Below are positions 602 to 25,701 of a stretch of DNA of 64,000 bases, in pieces. The notes beneath the pieces are model-generated. The model made no database searches. It saw only the letters and a program-made list of their open reading frames with translations, and was not told where the DNA came from. The stretch covers positions 1 through 64,000 of the forward strand of contig MKUE01000110.1 in the NCBI GenBank assembly GCA_001897675.1, read 5' to 3'. The DNA comes from Thiobacillus sp. 65-1059. GTDB taxonomy: Bacteria; Pseudomonadota; Gammaproteobacteria; Burkholderiales; Thiobacillaceae. Each line of letters begins with the position of its first letter. Within the stretch, counting starts at the first letter, position 1. The position numbers and the translations under genes are program-made.

Positions 602-835
602 TGCGTTCCCTTCAGCTAAGTAAAAACTGCCGCATTTCCATGCCCGGAAAAGCCGTGCAGCGACAGCTTGGGCAGAATATGCAAAAACCTTGATTATCCG
701 TCAGCAGGGCGGGCTTTCGCAAGCCGCGTCGAAACCGGGAAAAAGGGATTTTACGACAAGAGCTTAAACACCGAAGCTCAAGCGCTGACTCAGGGTCGTA
801 CTGTAAAAATCTTTTTATTGGTTCGATGGGGCTGC

Positions 836-1618
836 TTATGCGCCGGCGGCTTTCAACCAGTCGCGCCACAGCTCGAACAGTTCCGGACTGGCCGAAGCCA
901 CCACCGACCGCTCCCACACGTTGGCGATATCGAAGCTGCCCGACAGGCTGGCCAGCCGCCCGCCCGCCTCTTCCAGAATCAGCGCGCCGGCGGCGTAATC
1001 CCACAGCTTCTGCCCGCCGTGGACATAAACGTCGAAACGTCCGGCCGCGGTGTAGCACCAGTCCAGAGTGGATGCGCCGAAATTGCGCTGCGAGGCATAC
1101 GGCGGCCACGCCGCGAGCCGGCCGGCCAACTCGCGGTCGATGCGTTTCATTTCGACTCCGGCGAGCGCGCGCCGCAGTTCGGTGGCGGGGGTGCGCAAGG
1201 GCAGCGGGATGCCGTTGAGGTGCGCGCCGCGTCCGCGTTCGGCGGTGAACATCTCGTCGGCGACCGGATCGTACACCACGCCGAACTGACGCTCGCCCTT
1301 GTAGAGATAGGCCACCGACACGGCGAAGTAGGGCACCCCGGCGACGAAGTTGGAGGTGCCGTCGATCGGGTCGACGCACCACAGGCCGTCGCGGCCGGCC
1401 TCCCAGGCGTCGCGCTGCTGCTGCTCGGTCATTTCCTCGCCCAGCACCGGCACGTCCCTGATATGCGGCAGCGCCGCTTCCAGCGCGGCCTGCGTCGCCA
1501 CATCGGCTTCGGTGAACAGGCTGCCGTCCCGCTTGTGGCTGTGCGCCACCTTGAGGAAACGCGGCGTGACTTCGCTCTGCGCAACCCGCCTTACCAAGGC
1601 CTGGATCTGGTCAAGCAC
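836..1618 (-). CDS. Inositol monophosphatase family protein
   Basis: GEEMTEQQ and DPIDGTSNFVAGVPYFAVSVA motifs, and the C-terminal WDYAAGALILEEAGG motif; GTG start proposed. Confidence 0.88.
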   Translation of the reverse strand: MLDQIQALVRRVAQSEVTPRFLKVAHSHKRDGSLFTEADVATQAALEAALPHIRDVPVLGEEMTEQQQRDAWEAGRDGLWCVDPIDGTSNFVAGVPYFAVSVAYLYKGERQFGVVYDPVADEMFTAERGRGAHLNGIPLPLRTPATELRRALAGVEMKRIDRELAGRLAAWPPYASQRNFGASTLDWCYTAAGRFDVYVHGGQKLWDYAAGALILEEAGGRLASLSGSFDIANVWERSVVASASPELFELWRDWLKAAGA

Positions 1619-1620
1619 GA

Positions 1621-2235
1621 TCAGGTACGCAGGCAATAACAGTAAACAAATTCCTGCTCCTGTCCCGCGGGGGTGTGGTGGATTTCGGTTTCGTGCCCGA
1701 GCAGCCGGAAAGGCATGCCGAACTCGGCATGCAGCGCATCGGGGGCGTAGCGCATCACGTCGAGCCCCGAGCACTGCAACGGCCCGCCGGGGCCGAAGGC
1801 GGCGACGATGACATGCCCGCCGGGCTTCACGCTCTTCAGAACCTGCGCGACATAACGTGCGCGGTCGGCCGGATCGGTCAGGAAATGGAATACCGCGCGA
1901 TCGTGCCAGACGTCGTAGCGCGCGGCCGGCAATTCGGCCCGGGTGACGTCGCCGGCAATCCACTGCACCGGCTGCGCACGCGCACCGAGACGCGCGCGGC
2001 TGGCGGCCAGCGCCGGCTCAGCCAGATCGAGCACGGTCAGATGGCGGTAACCGGCGTCGAGCAGATCGTCCACCAGCACCGAAGCGCCGCCGCCCACATC
2101 GATGATCTCGGCATCGCGGCCCGCACAGCCCGCGATCAGGCGCAGCGATGAAGCGGCATGCAGCTGGAACCAGCTGACCTGGTCGGCCGCCTTGTTGCGG
2201 TAAACGGTTTCCCAATGCTGGCGACGGTCGACCAT
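1621..2235 (-). CDS. Class I SAM-dependent methyltransferase
   Basis: EIIDVGGGASVLVDDLL and VWHDRAVFHFLTDPADRARYV motifs. Confidence 0.85.
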   Translation of the reverse strand: MVDRRQHWETVYRNKAADQVSWFQLHAASSLRLIAGCAGRDAEIIDVGGGASVLVDDLLDAGYRHLTVLDLAEPALAASRARLGARAQPVQWIAGDVTRAELPAARYDVWHDRAVFHFLTDPADRARYVAQVLKSVKPGGHVIVAAFGPGGPLQCSGLDVMRYAPDALHAEFGMPFRLLGHETEIHHTPAGQEQEFVYCYCLRT

Positions 2236-2236
2236 C

Positions 2237-2794
2237 TCATTCCCCCTTCCATTTGATCGAGCAGCCCATGCTGGGAATCTGCCCGGCGGGGCCGCGCCCG
2301 GTGGCGGCGATTTCCTTCATCGCCTCGAACAGGTCGCGGCGCACGCCCTCGGGCGCGGTTTCCTTGCGCGACTCATCGAAGCGTCCGCGGTACTGCAATT
2401 CGAAATCGCGGTTGAAGCCGAAAAAGTCCGGCGTGCACACCGCCCCGTAAGCTTTCGCCACCTGCTGCGTTTCGTCGATCACGTAGGGAAAGGGGAAATC
2501 GAATTCCGCCGCCACCTTTTTCATGTTGCCGAAGGAATCCTCGGGATATTCGGCCGGGTCGTTCGACATGATGGCGATGGCGTGGATGCCGTGCTGGCGG
2601 AGCTCGGCCAGGTCGCGCACCAGCCGCGGACGGATCGCCTTCACATACGGGCAGTGGTTGCAGATGAACATCACCAGCAGGCCGTTCGGCCCCATCGCAT
2701 CGGCCAGCGTCCATACTTTTCCGTCTACGCCGGGCAGGCTGAAGCCAGGCGCTTTGCGGCCAAAATCGCACACGGGGGTGGTGAGGGAAACCAA
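2237..2794 (-). CDS. Thioredoxin-family / redoxin-domain protein
   Basis: FSLPGVDGKVWTLADAMGPNGLLVMFICNHCPYVKAI; CNHCPYV active-site-like motif. Start uncertain (TTG proposed). Confidence 0.8.
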   Translation of the reverse strand: MVSLTTPVCDFGRKAPGFSLPGVDGKVWTLADAMGPNGLLVMFICNHCPYVKAIRPRLVRDLAELRQHGIHAIAIMSNDPAEYPEDSFGNMKKVAAEFDFPFPYVIDETQQVAKAYGAVCTPDFFGFNRDFELQYRGRFDESRKETAPEGVRRDLFEAMKEIAATGRGPAGQIPSMGCSIKWKGE

Positions 2795-2839
2795 GATGCT
2801 CTCCGCAAGATCGCTCGACAATCCCGGCATAATACCAAT

Positions 2840-3568
2840 ATGTCCGCCCCGCGTTTCCATCTCGACCAGCCGCTCGCCCCGGGTGCCCGTTTCGGCCTGC
2901 CGCCGGGCCCCGCGCGCCATGCCGCGCGGGCGCTGCGGCTGGCGGTGGGCGATGCCGTCACCCTGTTCAACGGACAGGGCGGCGAATACGCCGCCCGCAT
3001 CGAACGCATCCAGAAAGACGAAGTCGCGGTCAGCGTCACCGGCTTTGCCGACGTCGAGCGCGAATCGCGCTTGCGCGTGATGCTGGCGCAGGGCATTTCG
3101 AGCGGCGAACGCATGGACTACACGCTGCAGAAAGCGGTGGAGCTGGGCGTGACGGCAATCCAGCCGATCGCCGCCAAGCGCAGCGTGGTCAAGCTGACGG
3201 CCGAACGCGCCGACAAGCGCGTCGCACACTGGCAGGGCGTAGTGGCCAGCGCCTGCGAACAATGCGGACGCAACCGGGTTCCGGCAGTGGCCGCGCCGCT
3301 GACGCTGGCCAACTGGCTCGGCCAGCGCACGGGCGGGCGCCTGCTGTTTTTATCGCCGTTGGCCGAGGCGCGGCTGGCCGACCTGCCGCCGCCGGCGGCG
3401 CAAGACTGCCTGGTCGCCGGCCCCGAAGGCGGGTTCGAAAGCGACGAGGTCGCCGCACTCCTGGCAGCCGGAGCGGTCGCCGTCCGCCTGGGGCCGCGCG
3501 TGCTGCGCACCGAGACGGCCGCGCTCGCCGCGCTGGCCGCGATGCAGACGCTATGGGGCGATTTCTAG
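2840..3568 (+). CDS. rsmE: 16S rRNA (uracil(1498)-N(3))-methyltransferase
   Basis: GERMDYTLQKAVELGVTAIQPI, GPEGGFESDEV and LGPRVLRTETAALAALA motifs of RsmE. Confidence 0.93.
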   Translation: MSAPRFHLDQPLAPGARFGLPPGPARHAARALRLAVGDAVTLFNGQGGEYAARIERIQKDEVAVSVTGFADVERESRLRVMLAQGISSGERMDYTLQKAVELGVTAIQPIAAKRSVVKLTAERADKRVAHWQGVVASACEQCGRNRVPAVAAPLTLANWLGQRTGGRLLFLSPLAEARLADLPPPAAQDCLVAGPEGGFESDEVAALLAAGAVAVRLGPRVLRTETAALAALAAMQTLWGDF

Positions 3569-3583
3569 GCGCGCAGCGGGCGT

Positions 3584-3611
3584 AAAAATCCGGGCCGGTT
3601 GCCCGGATTTT
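3584..3611. terminator. Bidirectional intrinsic terminator between convergent genes
   Basis: TAAAAATCCGGGC-CGGTT-GCCCGGATTTTA, perfect stem with A/T tracts on both sides. Confidence 0.85.
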
Positions 3612-3631
3612 ATGCCCGGCGAGGGGGCCGA

Positions 3632-4063
3632 TCAGGGACGCAGGTAAGTGTAGCCCTGCTTCTGGCGCTGCATGATTTCCACCACGCCCGAGGAAACATA
3701 GCCCACCTTGGCATGCATATCCTCCTTGTCGAGCTTCTGATTGCGCATGGTGTTCTGGCACGCCACCACCGACACCCCGGAATCGACCGTCTCGCTGATG
3801 CGGTTGGCCACTTCGGACTCGGCTTTCAGCATGTTGATGCCGGGGCCAAACGCCACGATTTCGAGTTCGACGCTGTCCTTGCCCATGTCCTTCTGGATAT
3901 TCCTGGCGTTGTTGAGCGCCAGATTCCAGGTGGCGGGGTCGTTTTCGCTGACCTGGATCACCATTTTCGACTTGTCGGCGGCCAGAGCGGCGGCGGGCAG
4001 CGCCAGCGCGCCCATCAGCAAAGCCCCGCCCAGCAGGGCACCCAGCGTATTCATGCGTTTCAT
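3632..4063 (-). CDS. Periplasmic DsrE-family protein
   Basis: Signal peptide, then MVIQVSENDPATWNLALNNARNIQKDMGKDSVELEIVAFGPGINML ... GVSVVACQNTMR, DsrE/DsrF-like fold pattern. Confidence 0.75.
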   Translation of the reverse strand: MKRMNTLGALLGGALLMGALALPAAALAADKSKMVIQVSENDPATWNLALNNARNIQKDMGKDSVELEIVAFGPGINMLKAESEVANRISETVDSGVSVVACQNTMRNQKLDKEDMHAKVGYVSSGVVEIMQRQKQGYTYLRP

Positions 4064-6535: not shown

Positions 6536-9334
6536 ATGAAGGCATGGTTCGGGCGGCTCTCGTTGCGCTACAAACTCACCCTCGCCGCGCTGGGGGTGGA
6601 AGCCGCGATGCTGGCCTTTCTGATCGCCAACGGCGTCCAGCTCACCCGCCAGGAGTTGCAGCAGCAGGCCGAGTACCGCGTGCGGGAAGTCGGGGAAAAC
6701 CTTGCCGCGGCCCTGCTTGCGCCTTTGTCGCACCAGGATGACGCCAGCGTGCGCGACTTCATCGAAACCCTGCAGCGCGACGATGGCCTGAAAATGATCG
6801 CGGTGCGCGACAACAACAAGCGCATCGTGCATCAGGCCGGAACCGACGGCACCGAAGCCGATTTCCGGCTGCTGCAGCCGATCGAGCTTTCCGGCCAGCG
6901 CTATGGCGAAATCGCCCTGGTCCTGTCGGGCGACTTCATTCACGAGGCGCGCAGCCGCTACGTGCGGCAAAGCCTTTCCATCGCGGCTGCGGCCTTGCTG
7001 CTGACGGGCATCCTGCTGGCCTTGTCGACCGGCGGCGTGGTGCGCCGTTTCGAAGCGCTGACCCGTGCCAGCAAGCGCATGGCGCAAGGCGACCTCGACG
7101 TCAAGCTGGCTGGCGAAGGAGCCGATGAAATCGGCCAGCTGATCGGCACGTTCAACCGCATGGCCGAATCGGTCCGCTTCAATATCGACCGCGCACGCGA
7201 AAACGAAGCCCGCTTTCATGCGATCGCCGACTACACCCACGACCTGGAATTCTGGCTGTCGCCCGAAGGCCGGCTGCTCTGGATCAACCCGTCGGTCGAG
7301 CGCATGATCGGCCACAGCGTCGCCGAATGCATGGGACAACAGATGGACTTCCCGGCCGACGTCATCCATCCGGAAGACCGTGCCGCAGCCGAATTCCAGC
7401 TGCGCCAGGCCTTGCGCGGCACCTCCGGCCAGGGCTATGCGCTACGGGTATGCCGCAAGGATGGCGGCCATTTCTGGGCGGTGGTGAACTGGCAGCCGAT
7501 TCACGATTACAGCGGCGTTTACCAGGGCATCCGCGCCAGCATCCACAGCATCGACGACCTCAAGGCGACCGAGGCCAACCTGCGCCAGGCCATCAATGAA
7601 CTGCGGATGGCGGAAAGCCTGCAGGGCAAGTATCTGGAGGAAACCGAGCAGGAACGCGCCCGCCTGGTTTCGCTGCTGTCGGCGATGAACCTCGGCATTC
7701 TGTTCGTCGCCGCCGACAACCGCGTGATCTACCACAACCCCGCGTTCAGCCGCATGTGGATGATCGGGGAAGAGACCGCCCTGATCGGCCTGCCGGTGCA
7801 CGAAGTGCTGGCCAAATCCGCCTCGGTGCTGGCGCGCCCCGATCACTTTTCGCGCCACCTGCTGTCGGTGCTGGAAACGCGCGAGCTGTCCGACAGCTAT
7901 GAAATCCAGATGACCGACGGCCGCGTCATCACCGAACTCGACTACCCGGTGCGCGACCGCGAAGGCCGCTTCATCGGCCACCTGTGGATTTACGAGGACA
8001 TCACCCGCGAACGCCAGACCGCCGAACAGCTGGTGTATCTGGCCGAACGCGACGCCCTCACCGGGCTCTACAACCGCCACCGCTTCCAGCAGGAACTGGC
8101 GCGCACCATGCTGGAAAGCGACCGCCACCACATGCAGTGCGCGGTGATGTTTTTCGACCTCGACGAATTCAAAACCATCAACGACAGCTATGGCCACCGT
8201 GCCGGCGATGCGCTGCTGATCCGGGTGGCTGGCGAAATCAGCGCCCTGGTGCGGCGCAACGAGATTCTGGCGCGGCTGGGCGGCGACGAATTCGCCATCC
8301 TGATCCCGGCGGTGGAAGGCAACGAGGCCGAGGCGCTGGCCGAGCGCGTGGTGCGCGCGGTGTCGCAGATTCCTTTCCGTTTCGACGGGCAGAACCTGCG
8401 GCTTACCACCAGCCTCGGCATTGCCTACTATCCCGAGCACGCTACCGATGCCGACGACCTGGTCGCGCGGGCCGACATCGCCATGTACCAGGCCAAGGAT
8501 GCCGGCAAGAATACCTGGCGCGTATTTCGCGCTGACCGCGAGGCCGACAGCGAAATGCGCAGCCGCCTGTCGTGGGGCGAACGCATCAGCAACGCGCTCG
8601 ACAAGGGCCTGTTCCAGTTGCATTTCCAGGGCGTCTACCGGACGGACGACGGCACGCTGTCGCACCTGGAGGCGCTGATTCGCATGGTCGACGAGCGCAA
8701 TCCCGAGCAGCTCATCATGCCGGCGCATTTCATCCAGCTGGCCGAAAAAAGCGGCCGCATCCTCGACATCGACCGCTGGGTGATCCACGAGGTGCTGCGC
8801 ACGCTGTCGCACAACCCGGGCGTTCCCGCCATCGCCATCAATCTGTCGGGACGTTCGCTGTCCGAGCCCGGCCTGCCGCAATACATCGGCGACGAGCTGC
8901 GGCTGGCCGGCGTCAACCCCGGCCGCCTGATCATCGAAATCACCGAAACCGCCGCGGTTTCCGACCTGCACGACGCCCAGCGCATGATCGAAGCGATGCG
9001 CCAGTTCGGCTGCGGCGTCAGTCTCGACGACTTCGGGGTCGGCTTCGCCTCCTTCGCCTACCTCAAGCATCTGCATGTCGACACCATCAAGATCGACGGC
9101 ATTTTCATCCGCGACCTGCCCGCCGACCCCGACAACCAGGTGTTCGTGCAGGCCATGGTCAGCGTCGCCCTCGGGCTCGGCAAGTCGGTCGTCGCGGAAT
9201 ACGTCGAGGACAGCCAGACGCTCGCCCTGCTGCGCCGGTTCGGCGTCGATCTGGTGCAGGGCTATCACCTCGACCGCCCGGTCGCCGGCCATCCGGCATT
9301 GCAGGGCGCCGCCTGCGCCGAGGCCCCGGGCTGA
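6536..9334 (+). CDS. HAMP-PAS-GGDEF-EAL membrane protein (putative diguanylate cyclase/phosphodiesterase)
   Basis: Two TM segments, HAMP (FEALTRASKRMAQGDLDVKL), PAS (PSVERMIGHSVAECMGQ), RLGGDEFAIL, EALIR, DDFGVGFASFAYLKHLHVDTIKID. Confidence 0.92.
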   Translation: MKAWFGRLSLRYKLTLAALGVEAAMLAFLIANGVQLTRQELQQQAEYRVREVGENLAAALLAPLSHQDDASVRDFIETLQRDDGLKMIAVRDNNKRIVHQAGTDGTEADFRLLQPIELSGQRYGEIALVLSGDFIHEARSRYVRQSLSIAAAALLLTGILLALSTGGVVRRFEALTRASKRMAQGDLDVKLAGEGADEIGQLIGTFNRMAESVRFNIDRARENEARFHAIADYTHDLEFWLSPEGRLLWINPSVERMIGHSVAECMGQQMDFPADVIHPEDRAAAEFQLRQALRGTSGQGYALRVCRKDGGHFWAVVNWQPIHDYSGVYQGIRASIHSIDDLKATEANLRQAINELRMAESLQGKYLEETEQERARLVSLLSAMNLGILFVAADNRVIYHNPAFSRMWMIGEETALIGLPVHEVLAKSASVLARPDHFSRHLLSVLETRELSDSYEIQMTDGRVITELDYPVRDREGRFIGHLWIYEDITRERQTAEQLVYLAERDALTGLYNRHRFQQELARTMLESDRHHMQCAVMFFDLDEFKTINDSYGHRAGDALLIRVAGEISALVRRNEILARLGGDEFAILIPAVEGNEAEALAERVVRAVSQIPFRFDGQNLRLTTSLGIAYYPEHATDADDLVARADIAMYQAKDAGKNTWRVFRADREADSEMRSRLSWGERISNALDKGLFQLHFQGVYRTDDGTLSHLEALIRMVDERNPEQLIMPAHFIQLAEKSGRILDIDRWVIHEVLRTLSHNPGVPAIAINLSGRSLSEPGLPQYIGDELRLAGVNPGRLIIEITETAAVSDLHDAQRMIEAMRQFGCGVSLDDFGVGFASFAYLKHLHVDTIKIDGIFIRDLPADPDNQVFVQAMVSVALGLGKSVVAEYVEDSQTLALLRRFGVDLVQGYHLDRPVAGHPALQGAACAEAPG

Positions 9335-9472
9335 CGGCGCTTATGCGTTGACTTTCCCAGGGAGCCGCGCCATTCCGGCGCGCCCCCGCCCGCCTTTCCA
9401 TCCCACGTCCACTTTCGTGGTGGACAGGGCCTCCCTGGCGTCTATATCTAACAAGTCGACCAGGAGAAACCC

Positions 9473-10810
9473 ATGCGAGCAGAATCCCGTTTCGGGTACA
9501 AGCAGGCGCACGTTCTCAATCAAGGGCGGGGCGTCCCGTTTGCGCTGCTGTTGCTGGGCACGGTCGCAATGCCGGCGCATGCCTTGCCCAGCTATGCCCG
9601 ACAGACCGGGCAGGATTGCATCGCCTGTCACGTCGGCGGATTCGGCCCGCAACTCACGCCCTACGGCATCCGCTTCAAGCTGGGCGGCTACAGCGACAGC
9701 GACGGCAAGCCCGGGCACATCCCGCTTTCGGCCATGCTTCGGGGCTCCTGGACACACACCCGCCAGGACCAGGCCGGCGGCGCGGCACCGCATTACGGAA
9801 CGAACGACAATGGCACGCTGGACGAGGCATCGATTTTTCTTGCGGGCAAGCTGGTCGGCCAGATGGGGACTTTCATTCAGGCCACGTATTCCGGTGTCGA
9901 TCGCGTGAGTTCGCTCGACAACGTCGATGCACGCTACGCACACACGCTGACGCTCGCCGGCAAGGACGCGACGGTGGGCGTTTCGCTCAACAACAATCCC
10001 AGCATCCAGGATCCGTTCAACACCCTGCCTGCCTGGGGATTCCCGTACACCTCGTCGGATCTGGCGCCGACGCCCGCCGCAGCACCGCTGATCAATGGCG
10101 GCCTGGCCGGGCATGTGGCCGGCTTGTCCGCCTATGGTTTCTGGAACGACTCGGTGTATGCCGAGGTGGGCGCATACCGCACCCTCTCCGCCTCCGCGCT
10201 CAATGCGATTGGCATTCCCGACGACGGGGGCGTGCTGAGCTCGCCCGCGACTTACTGGCGTCTGGGCTTCTTCAACGATCTCCGGAAACAGAACTGGTCG
10301 CTCGGCCTGTTCGGACTGAATGCCGCCTTGCAACCCGACCGCAATGGCGGCCCCTCGGATAGATACAACGATATCGGCGCGGACGCGTCTTACCAGTTCC
10401 TGGGTACGCGTCGCCACATCGGCACGATCAATGCCCGTTATACCCACGAGCGGCAAACGCGCAACGCGTCCTTTGCCGTCGGCGAGGCAAGCAATCGGAA
10501 AGGATCGCTCAACGAGTTCCAGGTCAATGCCTCGTATTACTACAACCAGACCTGGGGAATGACCGCCGGTCATTTCACGATCAATGGAAGCCACGACGCC
10601 ACCCTGTACGACATCTCGGGCGCCCCGGATTCTGCCGGCTACCTCCTGCAGGCCGACTGGACGCCATTCGGGAAGGAAACCTCGTGGGGTGCGCCCTGGG
10701 TGAATGTACGGCTGGGCCTGCAATACACGATGTACACCAAATTCGATGGCACAGGCAGTCACGCCGGCGATAACGACACCACCTATCTGTTTGCCTGGAC
10801 ATCATTCTGA
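9473..10810 (+). CDS. Cyc2-like fused monoheme cytochrome / outer-membrane beta-barrel protein
   Basis: N-terminal signal region, single heme motif in ALPSYARQTGQDCIACHVGGFGPQLTPYGIRFKLGGY, then about 380 aa rich in alternating/aromatic strands ending in aromatic F (YLFAWTSF). Confidence 0.75.
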   Translation: MRAESRFGYKQAHVLNQGRGVPFALLLLGTVAMPAHALPSYARQTGQDCIACHVGGFGPQLTPYGIRFKLGGYSDSDGKPGHIPLSAMLRGSWTHTRQDQAGGAAPHYGTNDNGTLDEASIFLAGKLVGQMGTFIQATYSGVDRVSSLDNVDARYAHTLTLAGKDATVGVSLNNNPSIQDPFNTLPAWGFPYTSSDLAPTPAAAPLINGGLAGHVAGLSAYGFWNDSVYAEVGAYRTLSASALNAIGIPDDGGVLSSPATYWRLGFFNDLRKQNWSLGLFGLNAALQPDRNGGPSDRYNDIGADASYQFLGTRRHIGTINARYTHERQTRNASFAVGEASNRKGSLNEFQVNASYYYNQTWGMTAGHFTINGSHDATLYDISGAPDSAGYLLQADWTPFGKETSWGAPWVNVRLGLQYTMYTKFDGTGSHAGDNDTTYLFAWTSF

Positions 10811-10830
10811 ACTTACAAGAGGACATCACC

Positions 10831-11226
10831 ATGCGTTCCCGCCAGTCTCTTTCGGCAGTTTTTTTCGTCTGCCTGACACTCGCCGGGCTGTCCGGCATCA
10901 GCCCGGCTGCACATGCAGCCGGCGACCCAAAACGCGGGGCGGACACCTTTGCACAGGAATGCGCCGTATGCCACAGCGTCCTGGAAGGCCATAACAAGAT
11001 GGGCCCGTCGCTGTTCGCCGTCGTCGGCCGCAAGGCGGGCAGCATTGCAGATTACGTTTATTCAGCGCCGATGAAGCAAAGCAACTTTGCCTGGGGTCCC
11101 GACAAGCTCGATGCCTATATTGCGCATCCCGAACAGGTGGTGCCCGGCGACAAGATGCGCTACCACGGCCTGGCAGACGCGAAAGACCGGGCCGACGTCA
11201 TTGCCTATCTGAACACCCTACACTGA
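10831..11226 (+). CDS. Class I c-type cytochrome (cytochrome c2-like)
   Basis: Signal peptide, GDPKRGADTFAQECAVCHSVLEGHNKMGPSLFAVVGRKAGSIADYVYS...PGDKMRYHGLADAKDRADVIAYLNTLH. Confidence 0.92.
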   Translation: MRSRQSLSAVFFVCLTLAGLSGISPAAHAAGDPKRGADTFAQECAVCHSVLEGHNKMGPSLFAVVGRKAGSIADYVYSAPMKQSNFAWGPDKLDAYIAHPEQVVPGDKMRYHGLADAKDRADVIAYLNTLH

Positions 11227-11332
11227 ATCGCCGGATAGCGGCCTGCGCCTTGCCGGACCGGCCGACGTGAGCGGGGCACAAGTCAAAAACTGTTAAAATT
11301 CCCCGTTTTTCAAGCATTTCCGGGAATCCGCC

Positions 11333-12925
11333 GTGCTCACCGCTTCCAGCATCACCCTGCAATTCGCAGCCAAACCCCTGTTCGAGAACGTCAACGTCAA
11401 GTTCGGCGACGGCAACCGCTATGGCCTGATCGGCGCCAACGGCTGCGGCAAGTCGACCTTCATGAAAATCCTCGCCGGCGAACTCGAGCCCACTTCGGGC
11501 AATGTCTCGCTCGACCCCGGCGAGCGCATGGCCTGGCTGCGCCAGGACCAGTTCGGCTACGAGGACCAGCGCGTGCTCGACGTGGTGCTGCAGGGCCACG
11601 CCGAGATGTGGCAGGTGATGCGGGAAAAGGACGCCATCTACATGAACCCGGAGGCGAGCGAGGAAGACTACCTGCACGCCGCCGAACTGGAAGCCCGGTT
11701 CGGCGAGATGGGCGGCTACGACGCCGAGGCGCGCGCCGGCGAACTGCTGCTCGGCGTCGGCATCCCCACCGAACAGCACAACGGCACCATGAGCCAGATC
11801 GCGCCCGGCTTCAAGCTGCGCGTGCTGCTGACGCAGGCGTTGTTCTCCAACCCCGACATCCTGCTGCTCGACGAACCGACCAACAACCTCGACATCAACA
11901 CCATCCGCTGGCTGGAAAACGTGCTGAACGAGAGCAACGCCACCATCATCGTCATCTCGCACGACCGCCACTTCCTGAACCAGGTCTGCACCCACATGGC
12001 CGACCTCGACTTCGGCACCATCAAGGTCTACCCGGGCAACTACGACGACTACATGCTGGCCTCGACCCAGGCCAAGGAACGCCAGGCCAGTGCCAACGCC
12101 AAGGCCAAGGACAAGGTCGCCGAACTGCAGGAATTCGTGCGCCGCTTCTCGGCCAATAAGTCGAAGGCGCGCCAGGCCACCAGCCGCCTGAAGATGATCG
12201 ACAAGATCAAGATCGAGGACTTCAAGCCGAGTTCGCGGCAGAACCCCTACATCCGCTTCGAGCCGGAGAAGGCGCTGCACCGCCGCGCGCTCGAGGTCGA
12301 GAACCTCAAGTTCGGCTACGACGACACGCCGCTGTTCAGCAATCTCGGCTTCTCGCTGGAAGCCGGCGAAAAGATGGCCGTCATCGGCGGCAACGGGGTC
12401 GGCAAATCCACCCTGATGAAGCTCCTGATGGGCGAACTGACGCCGCAGTTCGGCGAGGTGCGCTGGAGTGAGAACGCCAACGTCGGCTACTTCTCGCAGG
12501 ACCACGTCGCCGACTTCGACATGGACAAGAACCTCACCGACTGGATGCACCAGTGGACCCAGCCGGGCGACGACGAACAGGTGCTGCGCGGCATCCTCGG
12601 GCGGCTCTTGTTCTCCGGCGACGACGTGAAGAAATCGGTGCGCGTGCTGTCCGGCGGCGAAAAGGGCCGCATGCTGTACGGCAAGCTGATGCTCGGCCGC
12701 CACAACGTGCTGGTGATGGACGAGCCGACCAACCACATGGACATGGAATCGATCGAGTCGCTCAACCTCGCGCTGGATCTGTTCAAGGGCACGCTGATCT
12801 TCGTTTCGCACGACCGCCAGTTCGTCTCGAGTCTGGCCACGCGCATCCTCGAAATCACCCCCGAGGGCGTCGAGTTCTACATGGGCGGCTACGACGAGTA
12901 CCTGCATTCGAAGGGCCTCGAATGA
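11333..12925 (+). CDS. ABC-F family ATPase (YbiT-type)
   Basis: Two ABC domains ([47 protein letters not shown]); GTG start. Confidence 0.93.
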
Positions 12926-15830: not shown

Positions 15831-16616
15831 ATGGCCGATTCGCACGCCAAGATGACCCAAGCCACCCCGCAGGAAGTCATCATTTCCGTTGTCGCCGGAC
15901 TGTTCGCGCCCCTGCTGGCGATTTTCCTGATCGTGATGCTGGTGCTCGGCATCCAGGACAACCACAAGCCGGACACCACGAGCGATGCCGCCCAGAAAGC
16001 CACCCTCGCGCGCATCAAGCCGGTCGCGCAGCTGGCCGCGCTCGACGCCAGCGCCCCCAAGGTCGAAAAATCCGCCCAGGAAGTCTACGATGCCGTGTGC
16101 GCCGCGTGCCACGCCGCCGGCGCACTGGGCGCGCCCAAGTTCGAAAACAAGGGCGACTGGAGCGGCCGCCTCGGCCAGGGCTACGACACCCTGGTCAAGC
16201 ATGCCATCGAAGGCATTCGCCAGATGCCCCCGCGCGGCGGCGGCGACCTGTCCGACACGGAAGTGGCGCGCGCGGTGGCCTACATGGCCAACTCGGCAGG
16301 CGCCAGCTTCAAGGCGCCGGAAGCGGGCGCGCCGGCCGCACCCGCTGCGGCCGGCAAACCCGACCCGGCCAAAGGCAAGCTCGTCTACGAAGCCAATTGC
16401 GTGGCCTGTCACGCGAGCGGCGTAGCCGGCGCGCCCAAGCTGGGCGACAAGGCGGCCTGGGATGCGCGCGTGGCTCAAGGCTATGCGACGCTGTACAGCC
16501 ATGCGCTGAACGGCATTCGCGGCATGCCCGCCAAGGGCGGCAACGCCAGCCTGTCGGAAGCCGATCTGACGAATGCGGTGGCTTACCTGTTCGTCGAGGC
16601 CGGCGGCAAGCTCTAA
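15831..16616 (+). CDS. Membrane-anchored diheme cytochrome c (two c5-type domains)
   Basis: N-terminal TM helix; CAACH and CVACH motifs in two similar domains (GAPK...MPPRGG / MPAKGG). Confidence 0.92.
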   Translation: MADSHAKMTQATPQEVIISVVAGLFAPLLAIFLIVMLVLGIQDNHKPDTTSDAAQKATLARIKPVAQLAALDASAPKVEKSAQEVYDAVCAACHAAGALGAPKFENKGDWSGRLGQGYDTLVKHAIEGIRQMPPRGGGDLSDTEVARAVAYMANSAGASFKAPEAGAPAAPAAAGKPDPAKGKLVYEANCVACHASGVAGAPKLGDKAAWDARVAQGYATLYSHALNGIRGMPAKGGNASLSEADLTNAVAYLFVEAGGKL

Positions 16617-16655
16617 GGCGTGACGGGGCCATCCGGACAAGCGGCGTACAGTTCG

Positions 16656-17228
16656 ATGAAAACCACGGTTTTCCTGATCGCGTCGGCGGCGGCTGTGCTG
16701 CTTGCCTGCGGCCAAGCCGAAGAGGCCGTCGTGCCGCAACTCCCGCAGGCCGAACCGGCGCCTGTGGCCCAGCCCGTCGAAACGCCGCCTGCGCTGCAGG
16801 CCGCGGCGGCGCCCAGGCCGGAAGCGACCGCGGTAGCTGAAGCCACGCCTGCGCCACAGCCCGCAGCCGCCCCGGCGCCCCGGCCCGCTGCGCCGAGCAA
16901 GCCTGCGGCAGCCCAACCCGATGCAGCCGACCGCGCCCAACCGGCGCCTGCCGACGAGGCCGCGGCCAGCGCCGCCAAGCCCGACCCCGCGCACGGCCAG
17001 CAGGTTTATCGCCAGGCGTGCGCTTTCTGCCACGACAAGGGCGTGGCTGGCGCACCGAAAGCCGGCGATGCTGCCGCCTGGGGCCCACGCCTGGCACAGG
17101 GCCTGGACACCCTCTATGCCTCCGCCTTGCAAGGCAAGGGCGCAATGCCGGCCCGAGGCGGCAACCCGGCGCTGGCAGACACCGACGTCAAGGCCGCGGT
17201 GGATCACCTCGCCGCGCAGTCGCGCTAA
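16656..17228 (+). CDS. c5-type monoheme cytochrome lipoprotein with Ala/Pro-rich linker
   Basis: Lipobox-like AVLLACG, about 90 aa Ala/Pro-rich region, CAFCH...GAPKAGDAAAWGPRLAQG...MPARGG. Confidence 0.88.
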   Translation: MKTTVFLIASAAAVLLACGQAEEAVVPQLPQAEPAPVAQPVETPPALQAAAAPRPEATAVAEATPAPQPAAAPAPRPAAPSKPAAAQPDAADRAQPAPADEAAASAAKPDPAHGQQVYRQACAFCHDKGVAGAPKAGDAAAWGPRLAQGLDTLYASALQGKGAMPARGGNPALADTDVKAAVDHLAAQSR

Positions 17229-17981: not shown

Positions 17982-19241
17982 TTACGGATGCGCGTGGGTC
18001 GCGTCCGCATCCACGTCCAGCGGCCACAGCCGATGCGCGTCCAGCTTCATCCGGGCATCGATGGCCAGCGCGCTCAATTGCGTCTGCTGCGCCTGCAGGC
18101 GCCCTTCCAGCGCCAGCCGGCGATTGAGCAGCACCTGATCGAGGCTGCCTTCGCCCAGGCTGTAAGCGCGCGCCGCCAGCCGTTCCGCTTCATCCAGCGC
18201 CTGCGCGGCACGGTCGGCCTGCTGCCAGTTGGCAGCCTGCGCCGCCGCCGCTTCGAAATCGGCGCGTGCCTCCTGGCGTAACCGCTGCTCCAGCCGGATG
18301 ACGGCATCCTGCGCGGCAGCGCTCAACTGCTCGGCAGCCTGCTGATCGAAACGCCGGGCCGCGCCCGGCAGGGTCAGTCCGAGATTCAGTCCCAGCACGT
18401 GTTCGTTGCCGCCGGCCTCGTTTTTGTAGAACACGCCGACGCTGGGATCGGCGCTGCGGTGCTGCGCCAGCTTGCGCGCCTCGGCCTGCAGCACCTCGGC
18501 CTGGCGGCGCGCGCGCGTGAGCTCGTGGTTGTGCGCCAGCACGGCGACGACGTAGTCCTCCGCCGTCCCGGCAGGCGGCAGCGGCAGCGGCAAGGCGCCG
18601 TCCGCCGCGACCGGCAGCGCGGGATATTGCGCCAACAGGCGGCTGCGCGCCTGCTGCTCGCGCGCGCTCGCCTGCTGCTGCTGCAGGCGGACCTGCGCCA
18701 GCGCCGCTTCGGCATTGACGCGCTCGGCGCGCGGCGACTCGCCCAGACGAATCCGCGCATTCACGACCGCGAGCTGCTGTTCGGCGAGCTGAAGCTGCGC
18801 CTGCCAGAGCTGCGACTGACTGGCGACACCCAGCCAGTCGAACCATAACGCGAGCAGTTGCCGCCCGCTTTCATGCAGCGCTTCGCCCAGGTTCGCTTCG
18901 GCATGCGCGGTGAGGGCGCCGGCCAGGGCGCGGTCGGCGGCGGCGCGGGCGGGCAGCCGCAATGGACGCGACAGCGCCACCCCCCACTCGGCCTGGTTGT
19001 CGCGCGGCGTCGTCTGGACACGGCGCTGCGCCAGGTCCGTCCCCACCAGCCATTCTTCGCGCCCGCGCTGCAGACTCTGCCCGCGCAGTGCCTGCGCGGC
19101 CAGTTCGCCGCGCGCCTGGGCCACCATGGGCGAGGCCCACAGGGCCGCTTCCGCCGCCGCCGGGTCGGGCAGATAATCGGCGCGCGCATTGGCTGCGAAC
19201 GCCAGCGCGAGTGCGAGGGTCAGTTTGTGCACGGCATTCAT
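17982..19241 (-). CDS. TolC-family outer-membrane efflux protein (CusC/CzcC-like)
   Basis: Signal peptide MNAVHKLTLALALAFAANARA, long helical repeats; 4-bp overlap with the RND gene. Confidence 0.85.
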   Translation of the reverse strand: MNAVHKLTLALALAFAANARADYLPDPAAAEAALWASPMVAQARGELAAQALRGQSLQRGREEWLVGTDLAQRRVQTTPRDNQAEWGVALSRPLRLPARAAADRALAGALTAHAEANLGEALHESGRQLLALWFDWLGVASQSQLWQAQLQLAEQQLAVVNARIRLGESPRAERVNAEAALAQVRLQQQQASAREQQARSRLLAQYPALPVAADGALPLPLPPAGTAEDYVVAVLAHNHELTRARRQAEVLQAEARKLAQHRSADPSVGVFYKNEAGGNEHVLGLNLGLTLPGAARRFDQQAAEQLSAAAQDAVIRLEQRLRQEARADFEAAAAQAANWQQADRAAQALDEAERLAARAYSLGEGSLDQVLLNRRLALEGRLQAQQTQLSALAIDARMKLDAHRLWPLDVDADATHAHP

Positions 19242-22200
19242 GCGCGCGCTCCTTTCAGAATGAATTGGCGATACAAGAGCGGCAGCATCACCAGCGTCAG
19301 CAAGGTGGCGCTGACCAGGCCGCCGATGACGACGATGGCGAGAGGCCGCTGGATTTCGGAGCCGGGCCCGCTGGCGAACAGCAAGGGCACCAGGCCGAAA
19401 GCGGCAATGCTGGCGGTCATCAGCACCGGGCGCAGCCGGCGCAGCGCACCGTCGCGGACGATGGCGTCGCCCTTCAGACCCTCGGCGCGCAGCTGGTTGA
19501 AGTAGCTGACCAGCACCACGCCGTTCAACACCGCGATCCCCAGCAAGGCGATGAAGCCGACCGAAGCGGGCACCGACAGATATTCGCCCGATGCTGCCAG
19601 CGCGAAAATGCCGCCGATCAGCGCCAGCGGCACGTTCATCATCACCAGCAGCGCCTGGCGCAGGTCGCCGAAAGTGACGTACAACAGAAAGCCGATCAGC
19701 AGCAGCGCCACCGGCACCACGATCATCAGGCGTTGCGCGGCGCGCTGCTGGTTTTCGAACTGGCCGCCCCAGGCCAGGTGATAGCCGGCAGGCAGCTTGA
19801 CCTGCGCAGCGACGGCGGCCTGGGCGTCGGTGACGAAGCTGACCAGGTCGCGCCCGGCGACGTTGGTCTGCACCACTGTAAAGCGCGCCGCGTTCTCCCG
19901 CTTCACCGCCACCGGACCGTTGGTGCGCTTGAGATGCGCCACCTGATCGAGGCTGATTTCGCGGCCGTCCCCCAGCACCAGGCGGATCGCCTGCAAGGCA
20001 TCCGGCGACTCGCGCAAGCCCGGCGGCCCGCGCAATTGCAGCGGTACGCGCCGCCCCTCCTGCTGGACCACGCCGATGACTTCGCCTTCCAGCTGGGTGC
20101 GCAGCAAGGCGGCGATGTCGTCGGCACTGAGGCCGAAACGGCCGGCGGCGTCGCGGTCGATTTCCGCCTGCAGATACTGCACCCCCTCGTTCTGCTGGGT
20201 GTACACATCGGATGCGCCGGAGACTTTCTCGACCACCCTGAAAATCTCGCCCGCCAGCCGGTTGAGCGTGGCAAGGTCGGGGCCGAAAATCTTGATCGCG
20301 ACGTCGCCGCGCGAACCGGTGAGCATCTCCGACACCCGCATGTCGATCGGCTGGGTGAAGTTGTGGGCGATGCCGGGAAAACCTTCGACCACCTTGCGGA
20401 TTTCCTCGGTCAGCCATTCCTTGTCCGGCTTGCGCCATTCGGCTATCGGCTTCAGCACCAGAAACGAATCGGTGTCGTTGAGGCTCATCGGATCCAGCCC
20501 GAGTTCGTCGGCACCGACGCGGGCGACGATGCGCCGGATCTCCGGCACGTTCTTCAGCAGCGCCTGCTGCACCCGCAGATCCTGCGCAACCGACTCTTCC
20601 AGGCTGATCGACGGCAGCTTTTCCAGCTGCACCAGAATGTCGCCCTCATCCATCACCGGCATGAAGGTCTTGCCGATCAGCGGATACACCCCGGCCGCCG
20701 CCAGCATCAGCACGCCGGCGGTGGCGTAAACGATTTTCGGGCGTGCCAGCGCGCGGTCGAGCAAGGGAACATAGATAGCCTGCGCCTTGCGCAGCAGCCA
20801 CGGGGCTTCGTGGGCGGTCTGCTTCAGCAGCCACGAGGCCAGCACCGGGATCACGGTAAGCGCCAGCAGCAGGGAAGCCGCCAGCGCAAACACGATGGTC
20901 AGCGCAACCGGCCTGAACAGCTTGCCCTCCAGCCCTTCCAGCGTCAGCAGCGGCAGAAAGACGATGGCGATGATGGCGATGCCCGACGCCACCGGGCTGG
21001 CGACTTCCTGCACCGCCCACAGCACGCGCTGGACCGGCCTGATTTCGGTGTTTTCCGGATCGTGCGCCAGGTGCGCGACGATGTTTTCCACCACCACCAC
21101 CGCGGCGTCGACCAGCAGGCCGATCGCGATCGCCAGCCCGCCCAGGCTCATCAAATTGGCCGACAGGCCGAACTGGCGCATCAGCACAAAGGTGGCCAGC
21201 ACCGACAAGGGCAGGATCAGCGCCACCACGATGGCGGCGCGCAGGTTGCCGAGGAACAGCAGCAGCAGGATCACCACCAGCACCGCCGCCTCCAGCAGGG
21301 CCTTGCTCACGGTGCCGACGGCGCGGTCGACCAGTTGCGCGCGGTCGTAAAACGGCGAAACGCTCACGCCCGCGGGCAAGGTGGCCTGAATCTCGGCGAG
21401 TTTGGCCTTGACGTTCTTGATGAGCTCGCCCGCGTTCACGCCCTTCAGGCCGATCACCAGGCCTTCCACCGCTTCGCCCTGGCCGTTTTGCGTCACCGCG
21501 CCGTAGCGGGTCAGCGCATCCATTTCCACGCGCGCGACGTCGCCTACGGTGACGACCACGCCGGCGACGGTCTTGACGCCGATATGGCGCAGGTCGTCCA
21601 GCGAACCGATGCCGCCGCTGACGCGCACCACCCAGGTCTCCTCGCCCTCGTTGACGCGCCCGGCGCCGTTGTTGCGGGTATTGGTTTCCAGCGCCGTGCG
21701 CAATTCGTCGAGCGTCACCCCGCGCGCGGTCAATGCGGCGGAATCGGGGCTCACGGCAAAAGTGGCGACGTGGCCGCCCAGCGCGTTGACGTCGGCCACC
21801 CCCGGCAATGCGCGCAGCTGCGGGCGGATCGTCCAGTCGAGCAGGGTGCGTTTTTCCGCCAGCGTCAACGGCCCTTCGATGGTGAACATGAAGAGTTCCG
21901 ACAACGGGGTGGAAATCGGCGCCAGTCCGCCCGACACGTTGGCCGGCAGGTCGCCCTTCACATTGGCGAAGCGTTCCGCCACCTGCTGACGCGCCCAGTA
22001 GATGTCGGTGCCCTCCTCGAAATCGACGGTGATGTCGACCAGCGCGTTCTTCGACAGGCTGCGCAGAATGGTCTGGTGCGGAATCCCCAGGAGCTCGGTT
22101 TCAACCGGCTGGGTGATGCGCGCTTCCACTTCTTGCGGGGTCATGCCGGGCGCCTTCAGAATCAGCTTGACCTGGGTGGTGGAAACGTCGGGAAAGGCAT

Positions 22201-22309
22201 CGATCGGCAGCAGGTGGAAGGCGCGTACGCCCAGCCCCGCCAGCGCCAGTGCGAGGACGAGCATCAGCCAGCGCCGCGCCAGCGCGAATTCGGTCAGGAT
22301 GTTGAGCAT
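19238..22309 (-). CDS. CusA/CzcA-family heavy-metal RND efflux pump
   Basis: 1023 aa; FPDVSTTQVKLILKAPGMTPQEVEARITQPVETELLGIP; GGLAIAIGLLVDAAVVVVENI TM4 motif. Confidence 0.93.
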   Translation of the reverse strand: MLNILTEFALARRWLMLVLALALAGLGVRAFHLLPIDAFPDVSTTQVKLILKAPGMTPQEVEARITQPVETELLGIPHQTILRSLSKNALVDITVDFEEGTDIYWARQQVAERFANVKGDLPANVSGGLAPISTPLSELFMFTIEGPLTLAEKRTLLDWTIRPQLRALPGVADVNALGGHVATFAVSPDSAALTARGVTLDELRTALETNTRNNGAGRVNEGEETWVVRVSGGIGSLDDLRHIGVKTVAGVVVTVGDVARVEMDALTRYGAVTQNGQGEAVEGLVIGLKGVNAGELIKNVKAKLAEIQATLPAGVSVSPFYDRAQLVDRAVGTVSKALLEAAVLVVILLLLFLGNLRAAIVVALILPLSVLATFVLMRQFGLSANLMSLGGLAIAIGLLVDAAVVVVENIVAHLAHDPENTEIRPVQRVLWAVQEVASPVASGIAIIAIVFLPLLTLEGLEGKLFRPVALTIVFALAASLLLALTVIPVLASWLLKQTAHEAPWLLRKAQAIYVPLLDRALARPKIVYATAGVLMLAAAGVYPLIGKTFMPVMDEGDILVQLEKLPSISLEESVAQDLRVQQALLKNVPEIRRIVARVGADELGLDPMSLNDTDSFLVLKPIAEWRKPDKEWLTEEIRKVVEGFPGIAHNFTQPIDMRVSEMLTGSRGDVAIKIFGPDLATLNRLAGEIFRVVEKVSGASDVYTQQNEGVQYLQAEIDRDAAGRFGLSADDIAALLRTQLEGEVIGVVQQEGRRVPLQLRGPPGLRESPDALQAIRLVLGDGREISLDQVAHLKRTNGPVAVKRENAARFTVVQTNVAGRDLVSFVTDAQAAVAAQVKLPAGYHLAWGGQFENQQRAAQRLMIVVPVALLLIGFLLYVTFGDLRQALLVMMNVPLALIGGIFALAASGEYLSVPASVGFIALLGIAVLNGVVLVSYFNQLRAEGLKGDAIVRDGALRRLRPVLMTASIAAFGLVPLLFASGPGSEIQRPLAIVVIGGLVSATLLTLVMLPLLYRQFILKGARA

Positions 22310-22312
22310 GGC

Positions 22313-23368
22313 TTATTCCCCCAACCATTGCGCCTTGAGCGCCGCCACGCCCTTGACGGCAACGCGGCTGCCCGCGGCCAGCCCGCCGACTTCCGCCTGG
22401 CTGGCGTTCTGGCGCAGCAGCCGCACCGGCGTCGGCTGGAAGCCCTGCGCGGTTTCGACGAACACATGCGGCTGCGCGTTTTGCCATACCAGGGCGGCGG
22501 CGGGCACGCTCAGGCTCTGCGCCGCCTGGGTGCCGGCAATCGCCGCCTGCACCGACTGGCCGGGGCGCAGCAGTTTTTGCGGATCAGCCAGACTGGCGCG
22601 CGCAAGCACGCTCTGCGCGGCATTCAGCTGCGGCAGCAGCGCGATGATGCGCCCGCCGGCATTGCTGCCCACCACGCTGACCGTCTGGCCGACGGCAACC
22701 TGCCGCGCCTGCGCGGTCGACAGCGGAATCTCCAGCGCCAGCTTCGACAGGTCGGCCAGCTTGGCGAGCGCCACTCCCGCATCCACCCGCTGGCCAGGCT
22801 CGGCCGCGCTCTCCGTCACCACGCCGGCGATCGGCGCCGTCAGCGTAAGCATGCTGCCGGATACCTTGCCGGCTCCCAGCAGCGACAACGCGGTTTGCGC
22901 GGCCGCTTGCGACGCGCGTGCCGACTGTGCCTCGGCACGCGCGGCACGCAGGCGCGATTCGGCGATCAGGCCTTCGCTGAACAGCTTTTCATCGCGCGCG
23001 GCATTGCCGGCAGCGAGCTGCGCTCTCAGCCGCGCCTGCGTCAGCGCATTCTGTGCGTCGGCGAGCCCCGGCATCGACAGGGTGACCAGCGGCGCCCCGC
23101 GCTTGACGCTATCGCCTGGCTGTACATGGAGCTGCGTGACCAGTCCGGCACCTGCCGCCGCGATCACGCGCACGCTGGCCGGTGGCAGCGTCACCCGCGC
23201 CGCATAGGTGAGCGCCGGGCTGGCGTTTTGGGTGGCCGCGGCCACGGTGGCAATGCCGAGATTTTTCTTCTGCGCGGCGGTCAGAGGCAGGACGTCGGCG
23301 GCAAAAGCGGGGGTGGCGCCCAACAGCGCCACGACGAGGATAGGGGTGGCAAAAAAACCAGTGGCCAT
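22313..23368 (-). CDS. RND efflux periplasmic adaptor subunit (CusB/CzcB-like)
   Basis: Signal peptide, GAGLVTQLHVQPGDSVKRGAPLVTL lipoyl half-motif, adjacent to the RND pump. Confidence 0.9.
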   Translation of the reverse strand: MATGFFATPILVVALLGATPAFAADVLPLTAAQKKNLGIATVAAATQNASPALTYAARVTLPPASVRVIAAAGAGLVTQLHVQPGDSVKRGAPLVTLSMPGLADAQNALTQARLRAQLAAGNAARDEKLFSEGLIAESRLRAARAEAQSARASQAAAQTALSLLGAGKVSGSMLTLTAPIAGVVTESAAEPGQRVDAGVALAKLADLSKLALEIPLSTAQARQVAVGQTVSVVGSNAGGRIIALLPQLNAAQSVLARASLADPQKLLRPGQSVQAAIAGTQAAQSLSVPAAALVWQNAQPHVFVETAQGFQPTPVRLLRQNASQAEVGGLAAGSRVAVKGVAALKAQWLGE

Positions 23369-24111: not shown

Positions 24112-24738
24112 ATGTCGCATCCAACCACGATTCAAGCCCGCCGGGTATACGACCCGCTGCTGCGGCTGCTGCACTGGGCCATCGCGCTCTCCATCCTGGC
24201 GCTCATCGCCACCAGCCAGCTGGCCGAGCTGTTCGAACACGGCCCTTATGAGGACACGCTGTGGAATCTGCATATTGTCAGCGGCTACGTGCTGGCGGCC
24301 GGCTTGCTGACACGCCTGCTGTGGGGGCTGGTCGGGCCGGCCAGCGCGCGCTGGCGCGATCTGTGGCACCCCGCCGTATGGAAGGACAGCCTCAGAAACC
24401 TGCGCCTGCCGAGCGCCCATCGCAGCGGGCACGACCCGATCGCCAGCCTGGGCTATCTGTTTGCCTATGGCGTGATGGCGCTGATGGTCGTCACCGGACT
24501 GGGGCTCGCCGCCAGCGAATTCCAGGCTGGCCCGCTGGCCGCCTGGCTGGGCAATGCCGGCTGGCTGGAAGACGTGCTGGGCGATCCGCACGAAGCCGGC
24601 TTCGTCTTGCTGCTCGGCTTTATCGGCCTGCACATGGCGGCGCTGGTATTCCACCAGTGGCGTGGCGAACGGGTGGCGCAGAGCATGTTCACCGGCAAGC
24701 AATATCTCGATGCGGAAAATGAGGTGCAGCATGATTAA
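24112..24738 (+). CDS. Cytochrome b561-type membrane protein
   Basis: RVYDPLLRLLHWAIALSILALIATSQ... WNLHIVSGYVLAAGLLTRLLWGLVGP; multiple TM helices with His. Confidence 0.88.
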   Translation: MSHPTTIQARRVYDPLLRLLHWAIALSILALIATSQLAELFEHGPYEDTLWNLHIVSGYVLAAGLLTRLLWGLVGPASARWRDLWHPAVWKDSLRNLRLPSAHRSGHDPIASLGYLFAYGVMALMVVTGLGLAASEFQAGPLAAWLGNAGWLEDVLGDPHEAGFVLLLGFIGLHMAALVFHQWRGERVAQSMFTGKQYLDAENEVQHD

Positions 24739-25141
24739 GCGTCTTTTCTGCGGCGCAGTGGCGGCGCTCGGCATGGTGTCGGCCGCCTCGGCGGCCGACA
24801 CCCCGGCCAGCCTGATGGCGCACTATGCCCAGGCGGCGGGCATCCCGGTTGCGGCCCTGTCCGCCGCCCGCGGCGCAGCGCTGTATCGCGCCGAGCATCC
24901 CGGACGCAATGCGCAGACGGCGAGCTGCGCCAGCTGCCACACCGCCAACCCGCAACAGCCCGGCCGCAGCCGCGTCGGCAAGCGCATCGAGCCGCTGGCG
25001 CCGGCGGCCAATCCCGAGCGCTTCACCGATGCGGCCAAGGTCGAAAAATGGTTTCGCCGCAACTGCGGCGACGTATTGCAGCGCGAATGCAGCGCCCGCG
25101 AAAAGGGCGATTTCATCGCCTGGCTGAGCCAGGTTCAATAA
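24731..25141 (+). CDS. DUF1924/SHP-like monoheme cytochrome c
   Basis: Signal peptide; CASCHTANPQQPGRSRVGKRIEPLAPAANPERFTDAAKVEKWFRRNCGDVLQRECSAREKGDFIAWL. Confidence 0.85.
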   Translation: MIKRLFCGAVAALGMVSAASAADTPASLMAHYAQAAGIPVAALSAARGAALYRAEHPGRNAQTASCASCHTANPQQPGRSRVGKRIEPLAPAANPERFTDAAKVEKWFRRNCGDVLQRECSAREKGDFIAWLSQVQ

Positions 25142-25151
25142 AGGAGCGAGC

Positions 25152-25679
25152 ATGAACTATCTATTGCGTGGAATCGGTGTGCTGGCGGCGGTCGGCACGT
25201 TCAGCCTGCTGGCGTTTTCGCTGCCCTCGGGCGAGGCCCACGGCGACGGCGGCGGCGACGCCCTGCCGCGCCTGACCCACAAGGCCTGGCAGCAGGAATG
25301 CGCGAGTTGCCATATCGCCTACGCACCGGCGTTCCTGCCGAAGGCATCATGGCAGCGCGTGATGGGCGGACTCGGCCAGCACTTCGGCGAGGACGCCAGC
25401 CTTGATCCGGCGACGCAGGCTGATATCCTGCGGTTCCTGGAGATCAACGCCGCCGATGCCGGCAGCAGCCGCATCGGGCGCAAGGTGATGCAGCGCATGG
25501 ACGCGCAGGACGCGCCGCTGCGCATCACCGAATCCCGCTGGTTCGTGCGCAAGCACGACGAGGTGCCGCGTGCGGCATGGTCGCGCAAATCGGTGGGATC
25601 CGCCGCCAACTGCGCGGCCTGCCACCGGCAGGCGGAACAGGGCGTGTTCGACGACGACTCGGTCAGAATTCCGAAATGA
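25152..25679 (+). CDS. Diheme cytochrome c (DHC-type)
   Basis: CASCHIAYAPAFLPKASWQRVMGGLGQHFGEDASLDPATQADILRFLEINAAD and second CAACH. Confidence 0.87.
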   Translation: MNYLLRGIGVLAAVGTFSLLAFSLPSGEAHGDGGGDALPRLTHKAWQQECASCHIAYAPAFLPKASWQRVMGGLGQHFGEDASLDPATQADILRFLEINAADAGSSRIGRKVMQRMDAQDAPLRITESRWFVRKHDEVPRAAWSRKSVGSAANCAACHRQAEQGVFDDDSVRIPK

Positions 25680-25701
25680 ACCCGAAGGGCAAAACCTGGC
25701 G

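Follow-up and report, generated by a model that had tools for sequence, protein, structure and literature searches.

A two-gene locus in Thiobacillus sp. 65-1059 encodes a member of the Cyc2 family of fused cytochrome-porins followed by a secreted class I cytochrome c (Table 1). The locus lies in the 64,000-nucleotide stretch of contig MKUE01000110.1 that was analysed here, hereafter the window. Our best reading, which we regard as probable, is that the outer-membrane barrel and its plug heme would act as an electron-uptake port that hands electrons to a dedicated periplasmic cytochrome c. We further propose, tentatively and with slightly more doubt than conviction, that beta- and gammaproteobacteria may possess a modular Cyc2 pathway, so far undescribed, of which the pair would be the minimal core. 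It would be made up of Cyc2, the class I cytochrome c, a cytochrome b561 or NapC/NirT cytochrome and a two-component system. Such a pathway would form a complete outside-to-quinone route in hosts that are not counted among the iron oxidisers. It would spread as a small cassette, which here would have equipped part of a Thiobacillus-related genus with a port for extracellular electrons that is absent from T. denitrificans.

Table 1 Features of the Cyc2-cytochrome c locus, in window coordinates.
Feature	Position	Strand	Basis
cyc2-like gene, Cyc2-family fused monoheme cytochrome-porin, 445 aa	9473..10810	+	Open reading frame, translation, homologues, 16-strand model, profiles, tree
Signal peptide, residues 1-37, predicted cleavage after AHA	9473..9583	+	Reading of the sequence
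Predicted cytochrome plug: Cyc2 motif ALPSYARQT, CIACH heme site, PQL, FKLGGY	9581..9691	+	Sequence; motif published in PMC8406198
Predicted 16-stranded outer-membrane beta-barrel, ending in an aromatic Phe	9725..10807	+	AlphaFold2 model; PDB porin folds
Partner gene, secreted class I monoheme cytochrome c (c2/c550-like), 131 aa	10831..11226	+	Pfam, PDB matches, conserved pairing
Segment of about 1983 bp, containing only the two genes and missing from the corresponding site of 11 genomes of the same genus	9308..11290		Empty-site comparison; present in G420 and G397

A fused cytochrome-porin of the Cyc2 family

The porin gene starts at an ATG preceded by AGGAG, and the signal peptide of its product reads ...LLLLGTVAMPAHA, with LPS as the first residues after the cleavage site. 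A single CIACH occupies residues 49-53 within ALPSYARQTGQDCIACHVGGFGPQLTPYGIRFKLGGY, and the protein ends in ...LFAWTSF; the original prediction had pointed to one CxxCH near the N terminus and to a C-terminal aromatic residue, and both are there, the latter as the final Phe. Cyc2 proteins have been defined by the motif AxPxFAR[QK][TY], one CxxCH followed by PxL, a minimum length of 365 residues and a porin of 16 strands (Keffer et al., PMC8406198). The window protein exceeds that length with its 445 residues, has a secreted-type start and carries one N-terminal CxxCH, and its motif, ALPSYARQT-GQD-CIACH, fits the published form at eight of nine positions. The exception is a Tyr instead of the published Phe, and either residue is found at this position among the porin's close relatives. 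PQL lies five residues past CIACH (VGGFG-PQL) rather than the published four, a longer spacing that is the rule in the window's clade.

Searches of Pfam, NCBIfam and PDB sequences returned no match to the porin gene. Since rus-operon Cyc2 is likewise without any Pfam match, these empty searches signify only the absence of a model. Nor is the reading frame a chance product, because homologues occur in 42 of 369 genomes of the class, many of them full length and with E-values down to 1e-145.

Structure prediction with AlphaFold2 on the mature porin, from an input of 64 aligned sequences, yielded a model with a pLDDT of 94.3 and a pTM of 0.91. Three short helices surround the heme site and are followed by exactly 16 strands (mature residues 48-407), so that the long beta-strand-like body noticed in the raw sequence is modelled as a 16-strand barrel with an N-terminal heme domain. 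Foldseek matches of the model are 16-strand porins, including Omp32 and OprP (2o4v), the latter having served as the template for Cyc2 modelling in the literature (PMC8406198). The signal peptide and the modelled barrel together point to a location in the outer membrane, and the CxxCH site suggests that the protein carries a bound heme. Assignment to the Cyc2 family is thus supported by motif, single heme, signal peptide, length, predicted barrel, profile and tree, the last two of which are described below.

Relationship to known Cyc2 clusters

As the rus-operon reference we used the Cyc2 gene of genome G263, presumably an Acidihalobacter, where it precedes COX2, COX1, CtaA, CtaB and a rusticyanin-like copper protein whose rusticyanin match falls under the curated cut-off of that family. 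The published gene order of Acidihalobacter rus operons (PMC10654088) is the same, except for cyc1, which was not seen in G263. In the comparisons below the rus-operon type is represented by loci L127, L143 and L144. A second set, L128-L136, is presumed to belong to Cluster 1 on account of its CHFQHFP motif.

Profile comparison with home-made Cyc2 profiles related the window porin to rus-operon Cyc2 over the full length (E=2e-73, 30-32% identity) and to the Cluster-1-like proteins with E=1e-19, mostly in the N-terminal part and most strongly in the cytochrome. A careful tree gave the same picture: the Cluster-1-like rows split from all others with 100/100 support, which excludes a Cluster 1 placement of the window porin, and the clade of the window was recovered with 100/98. 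An AU test rejected a topology that joins rus-operon Cyc2 and Cluster 1 without the window (p 0.018). The window porin therefore falls on the rus-operon side, apart from Cluster 1, and is likely a Cluster 2 Cyc2, as placed by sequence in a tree whose references lacked Cluster 3 (Leptospirillum Cyt572) and the Cyc2 of A. ferrooxidans. Eight barrel residues (T138, D149, R154, D180, W188, D300, E326 and W442) are invariant in all 23 sampled rows outside Cluster 1, rus-operon Cyc2 included, and are not invariant in the Cluster-1-like rows.

The window porin and rus-operon Cyc2 (Acidithiobacillus type, Cluster 2) have in common a signal peptide, the motif AxP[AS][FY]ARQ, one CxxCH and a 16-strand barrel, besides full-length homology, the invariant barrel residues and their side of the tree. 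They differ in that the window porin has Tyr for Phe in the motif, two more residues between CxxCH and PxL (VGGFG-PQL versus TVE-PQL) and no adjoining rusticyanin or cox genes, its partner being a single-heme class I cytochrome c. Cluster 1 Cyc2 (Mariprofundus, Gallionellaceae) resembles the window porin in fold class, motif and single heme but forms a separate clade, differs at many barrel residues and has a PxL spacing of four as against five. A Cluster 1 copy was sought in the Gallionellaceae MAG of locus L061, where only the window's Cyc2 type was found. The MtrAB/MtoAB/PioAB and PCC3 conduits are alike in principle, in that an outer-membrane barrel with a cytochrome inside connects to a cytochrome of the periplasm and to an inner-membrane protein that reacts with quinones (PMC8406198, PMC5566968). 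By contrast, the window porin is one polypeptide with one heme, 16 strands rather than 26 and no multiheme wire, and by the evidence here these conduits are not homologous to it.

The original prediction of a divergent Cyc2-type protein therefore stands as to the family, on motif, heme, length, barrel, profile and tree. It can be refined in that the porin is no isolated, divergent sequence: it sits in a large, well-supported clade. The locus is a further member of an already known family, found in a genus whose type species lacks Cyc2.

A conserved partner cytochrome c

Only 20 bp separate the porin stop from the partner ATG, in line with the secreted monoheme cytochrome c that had been predicted about 20 bp past the porin gene. 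Pfam places the product in class I (Cytochrom_C, 4.9e-8), and its top PDB match is a cytochrome c2 (1e-26), with mitochondrial-type cytochromes c also among the matches. We compared 80 named loci, drawn from the matches listed of at least 596 pattern stretches in named genomes. A homologous cytochrome c follows the porin on the same strand in approximately 47 of these 80, comprising nearly all relatives above approximately 48% identity; locus L115, where the contig ends and no cytochrome c is visible, is counted outside the 47. In more distant relatives, such as those in Dyella and Rhodanobacter, the partner is missing. Furthermore, porin and cytochrome c diverge together (Mantel r 0.65, reached in 0 of 2000 permutations), although shared ancestry makes up part of this signal. 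Judged from these sequence comparisons, the cytochrome c is a conserved, dedicated partner of the porin in the window's clade.

Alternative inner-membrane cytochromes and regulators in relatives

Most of the approximately 47 paired loci also have an adjacent quinone-reactive cytochrome of one of two kinds. A cytochrome b561 gene (PF01292) lies immediately upstream in 33 paired loci, compared with 0 of 30 unpaired ones. In L054, L058, L064, L065, L069, L081 and L101 its place is taken by a NapC/NirT tetraheme cytochrome (PF03264), and L115 retains a NapC/NirT fragment with an altered heme site. The two kinds occur together in no locus, an exclusion expected by chance at 5e-5 among the 40 loci with enough flanking sequence, ignoring relatedness. 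In a larger quick tree the NapC loci appear at no fewer than three positions, next to b561-bearing kin, so that the exchange between b561 and NapC/NirT seems to have occurred repeatedly. The presence of two unlike quinone-reactive cytochromes in one slot argues that Cyc2, cytochrome c and b561 or NapC/NirT together connect the quinone pool with the cell exterior.

A response regulator and a sensor kinase are encoded upstream in approximately 34 paired loci, and the kinases scanned contain a 2CSK_N domain. A search of the linked sensor kinases for an Fe(II)-sensing RExxE motif found none; these kinases commonly have an acidic stretch, which proves nothing.

Cyc2-like homologues in bacteria that do not oxidise iron have been noted before, in Uliginosibacterium gangwonense, Dechloromonas and Aquabacterium (PMC5566968), and U. 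gangwonense DSM 18521 is one of our loci (L067). The text of that study is without the partner cytochrome c, the exchange of b561 and NapC/NirT and the two-component system. A search of the literature that left most subscription journals outside found no description of this arrangement, and the conserved modular operon of the window's clade seems to be the undescribed part.

Several individual loci deserve mention. The U. gangwonense locus has two Cyc2-like genes (8001-9341 and 11117-12631), one of each subtype. A MAG named Chitinophaga pinensis (L082) carries a b561-cyc2-cytochrome c set that is nested among betaproteobacterial sequences, probably through an error of binning or naming. On a Paraburkholderia phytofirmans plasmid (NZ_CP014580.1, L041) the annotated start of the Cyc2-like gene, at locus position 8211, drops the signal and heme part, while the frame is open from about 7911. 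A distant Cyc2-like gene on an Acidithiobacillus ferrooxidans plasmid (CP084173.1, L039) adjoins a transposase and has a c-type cytochrome approximately 500 bp downstream, and Acidiphilium plasmids contain distant matches too.

A compact segment at a variable site

In the window the pair is bordered upstream by genes for a PhnD-like binding protein and a PAS-GGDEF-EAL protein and downstream by one for an ABC-F ATPase, and the rus-operon context (cyc1, cox and rus beside cyc2) is absent. Neither b561 nor NapC adjoins it; the genome has no NapC match, and its four b561 genes all lie away from the pair, one of them at 24.1 kb in the window with a diheme cytochrome. Among genomes of the same genus, G420 and G397 share the pair at the corresponding position (83% and 79% identity, respectively), while in 11 further ones only 34-383 bp separate the genes that flank it, compared with 1,983 bp in the window. 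The pair was thus apparently gained as a compact segment in some members of this Thiobacillus-related genus or, less simply, lost many times. Third-position G+C in the two genes is 0.77 and 0.70, against values of mostly 0.81-0.93, which agrees with a foreign origin but is weak on its own. A target-site repeat was looked for at the ends of the 2 kb segment, and none was found.

At the homologous site two relatives, L187 (G411) and L180 (G381), have other insertions, namely a short element whose ends are inverted repeats (GGCGTGTTAACACTAATTACACG) and a palindromic repeat; this intergenic site seems prone to insertion. Elsewhere in the genus, Thiobacillus sp. RI_561 (L072/L177; L072 is identical to the same-genus genome G408 over 9,888 bases) contains at 650-3642 a cyc2 of 51% identity together with its cytochrome c, accompanied by genes for a diheme cytochrome and a cytochrome c-prime. 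That set is located just upstream of DNA homologous to 15.6-20 kb of the window, a site different from the window's. A second Cyc2-like type, of approximately 39% identity, is present in G384, G395, G403, G421, G423 and G426, with the heme region ACHAGGQFPELT in those that were read.

The window itself contains further redox genes. At 24112-27674 a b561, a diheme cytochrome (DHC), a response regulator and a sensor kinase stand in a row, adjoined by open reading frames at 19241-23368 that were taken as RND-type efflux genes by reading only. We considered whether the b561 and two-component genes at 24.1-27.7 kb are a displaced part of the Cyc2 system and rejected this, as this b561 shares only 25% identity with the Cyc2-linked type and is accompanied by DHC. 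Two adjoining cytochrome c genes at 15831-17228 encode three CBB3-type domains in total.

Proposed function and alternatives

In the reading we favour, a small cytochrome plug with one heme would close the 16-strand barrel on the periplasmic side. A reduced donor, for which dissolved Fe(II) is the most likely candidate, would enter the barrel and pass an electron to the plug heme; the soluble cytochrome c would then contact the porin, take the electron from the plug and deliver it to the respiratory chain. The inward direction is suggested by the Cyc2 proteins that have been tested. In relatives, the link from the chain to the quinone pool is probably provided by the adjacent b561 or NapC/NirT. 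The window pair, lacking these, must use the general chain of its host, for example the bc1 complex or terminal oxidases. RuBisCO is encoded in the window genome, which fits a lithoautotroph.

Iron as the donor is an evenly poised call. Most of the named hosts (Zoogloea, Azoarcus, Derxia, Solimonas, Ideonella) are, to our knowledge, not iron oxidisers. Together with the lack of an adjacent rusticyanin-type partner and the published caution against assigning iron oxidation to Cluster 2 Cyc2 unless its context lends support (PMC10734462), this counts against Fe(II). The same wide occurrence would suit a different donor, be it Mn(II), U(IV), a reduced sulfur compound, a humic- or phenazine-type shuttle or another cell, as He et al. 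2017 explicitly left open for such homologues (PMC5566968), and the window's genus is known for oxidising sulfur, Fe(II) and U(IV) (PMC3753534). We nevertheless think it rather unlikely that the donor is other than iron: no neighbouring gene indicates a particular one, and the window keeps the barrel residues conserved with rus-operon Cyc2, an iron protein.

Electrons could also run outward through the same pair, leaving the quinone pool by way of cytochrome c and the plug heme and reaching an acceptor outside the cell, in redox balancing or respiration. The b561 and NapC/NirT of relatives are both quinone-reactive, and iron oxidation is not known for many of the hosts. Enzymes of the NapC type usually oxidise quinol, so that outward flow is possible in NapC-bearing relatives. 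For the window this direction appears improbable, given that it has no b561 or NapC nearby and no NapC match in its genome, that the pair is present in a Gallionellaceae MAG and in Thiobacillus MAGs, and that biochemically tested Cyc2 proteins oxidise Fe(II) (PMC8406198). Least probable by far is an ordinary porin or transporter with a structural or sensing heme and no electron transfer, for despite a barrel similar to the general porins Omp32 and OprP, the heme site and Cyc2 motif are invariant, the cytochrome c partner is conserved and the neighbours are quinone-linked.

Implications

The function of Cyc2 outside Cluster 1 is uncertain, and published work asks for genomic context before the label of iron oxidase is applied. 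The window's clade provides such context, in the form of a conserved partner cytochrome and the exchange of two unrelated quinone-reactive inner-membrane cytochromes. Fe(II) oxidation by T. denitrificans uses nitrate; the species lacks Cyc2, and none of its cytochromes has been linked to the process (PMC3753534, PMC11963766). As the cassette is patchy in the genus and absent from T. denitrificans, the genus offers a with-or-without comparison for Fe(II) oxidation.
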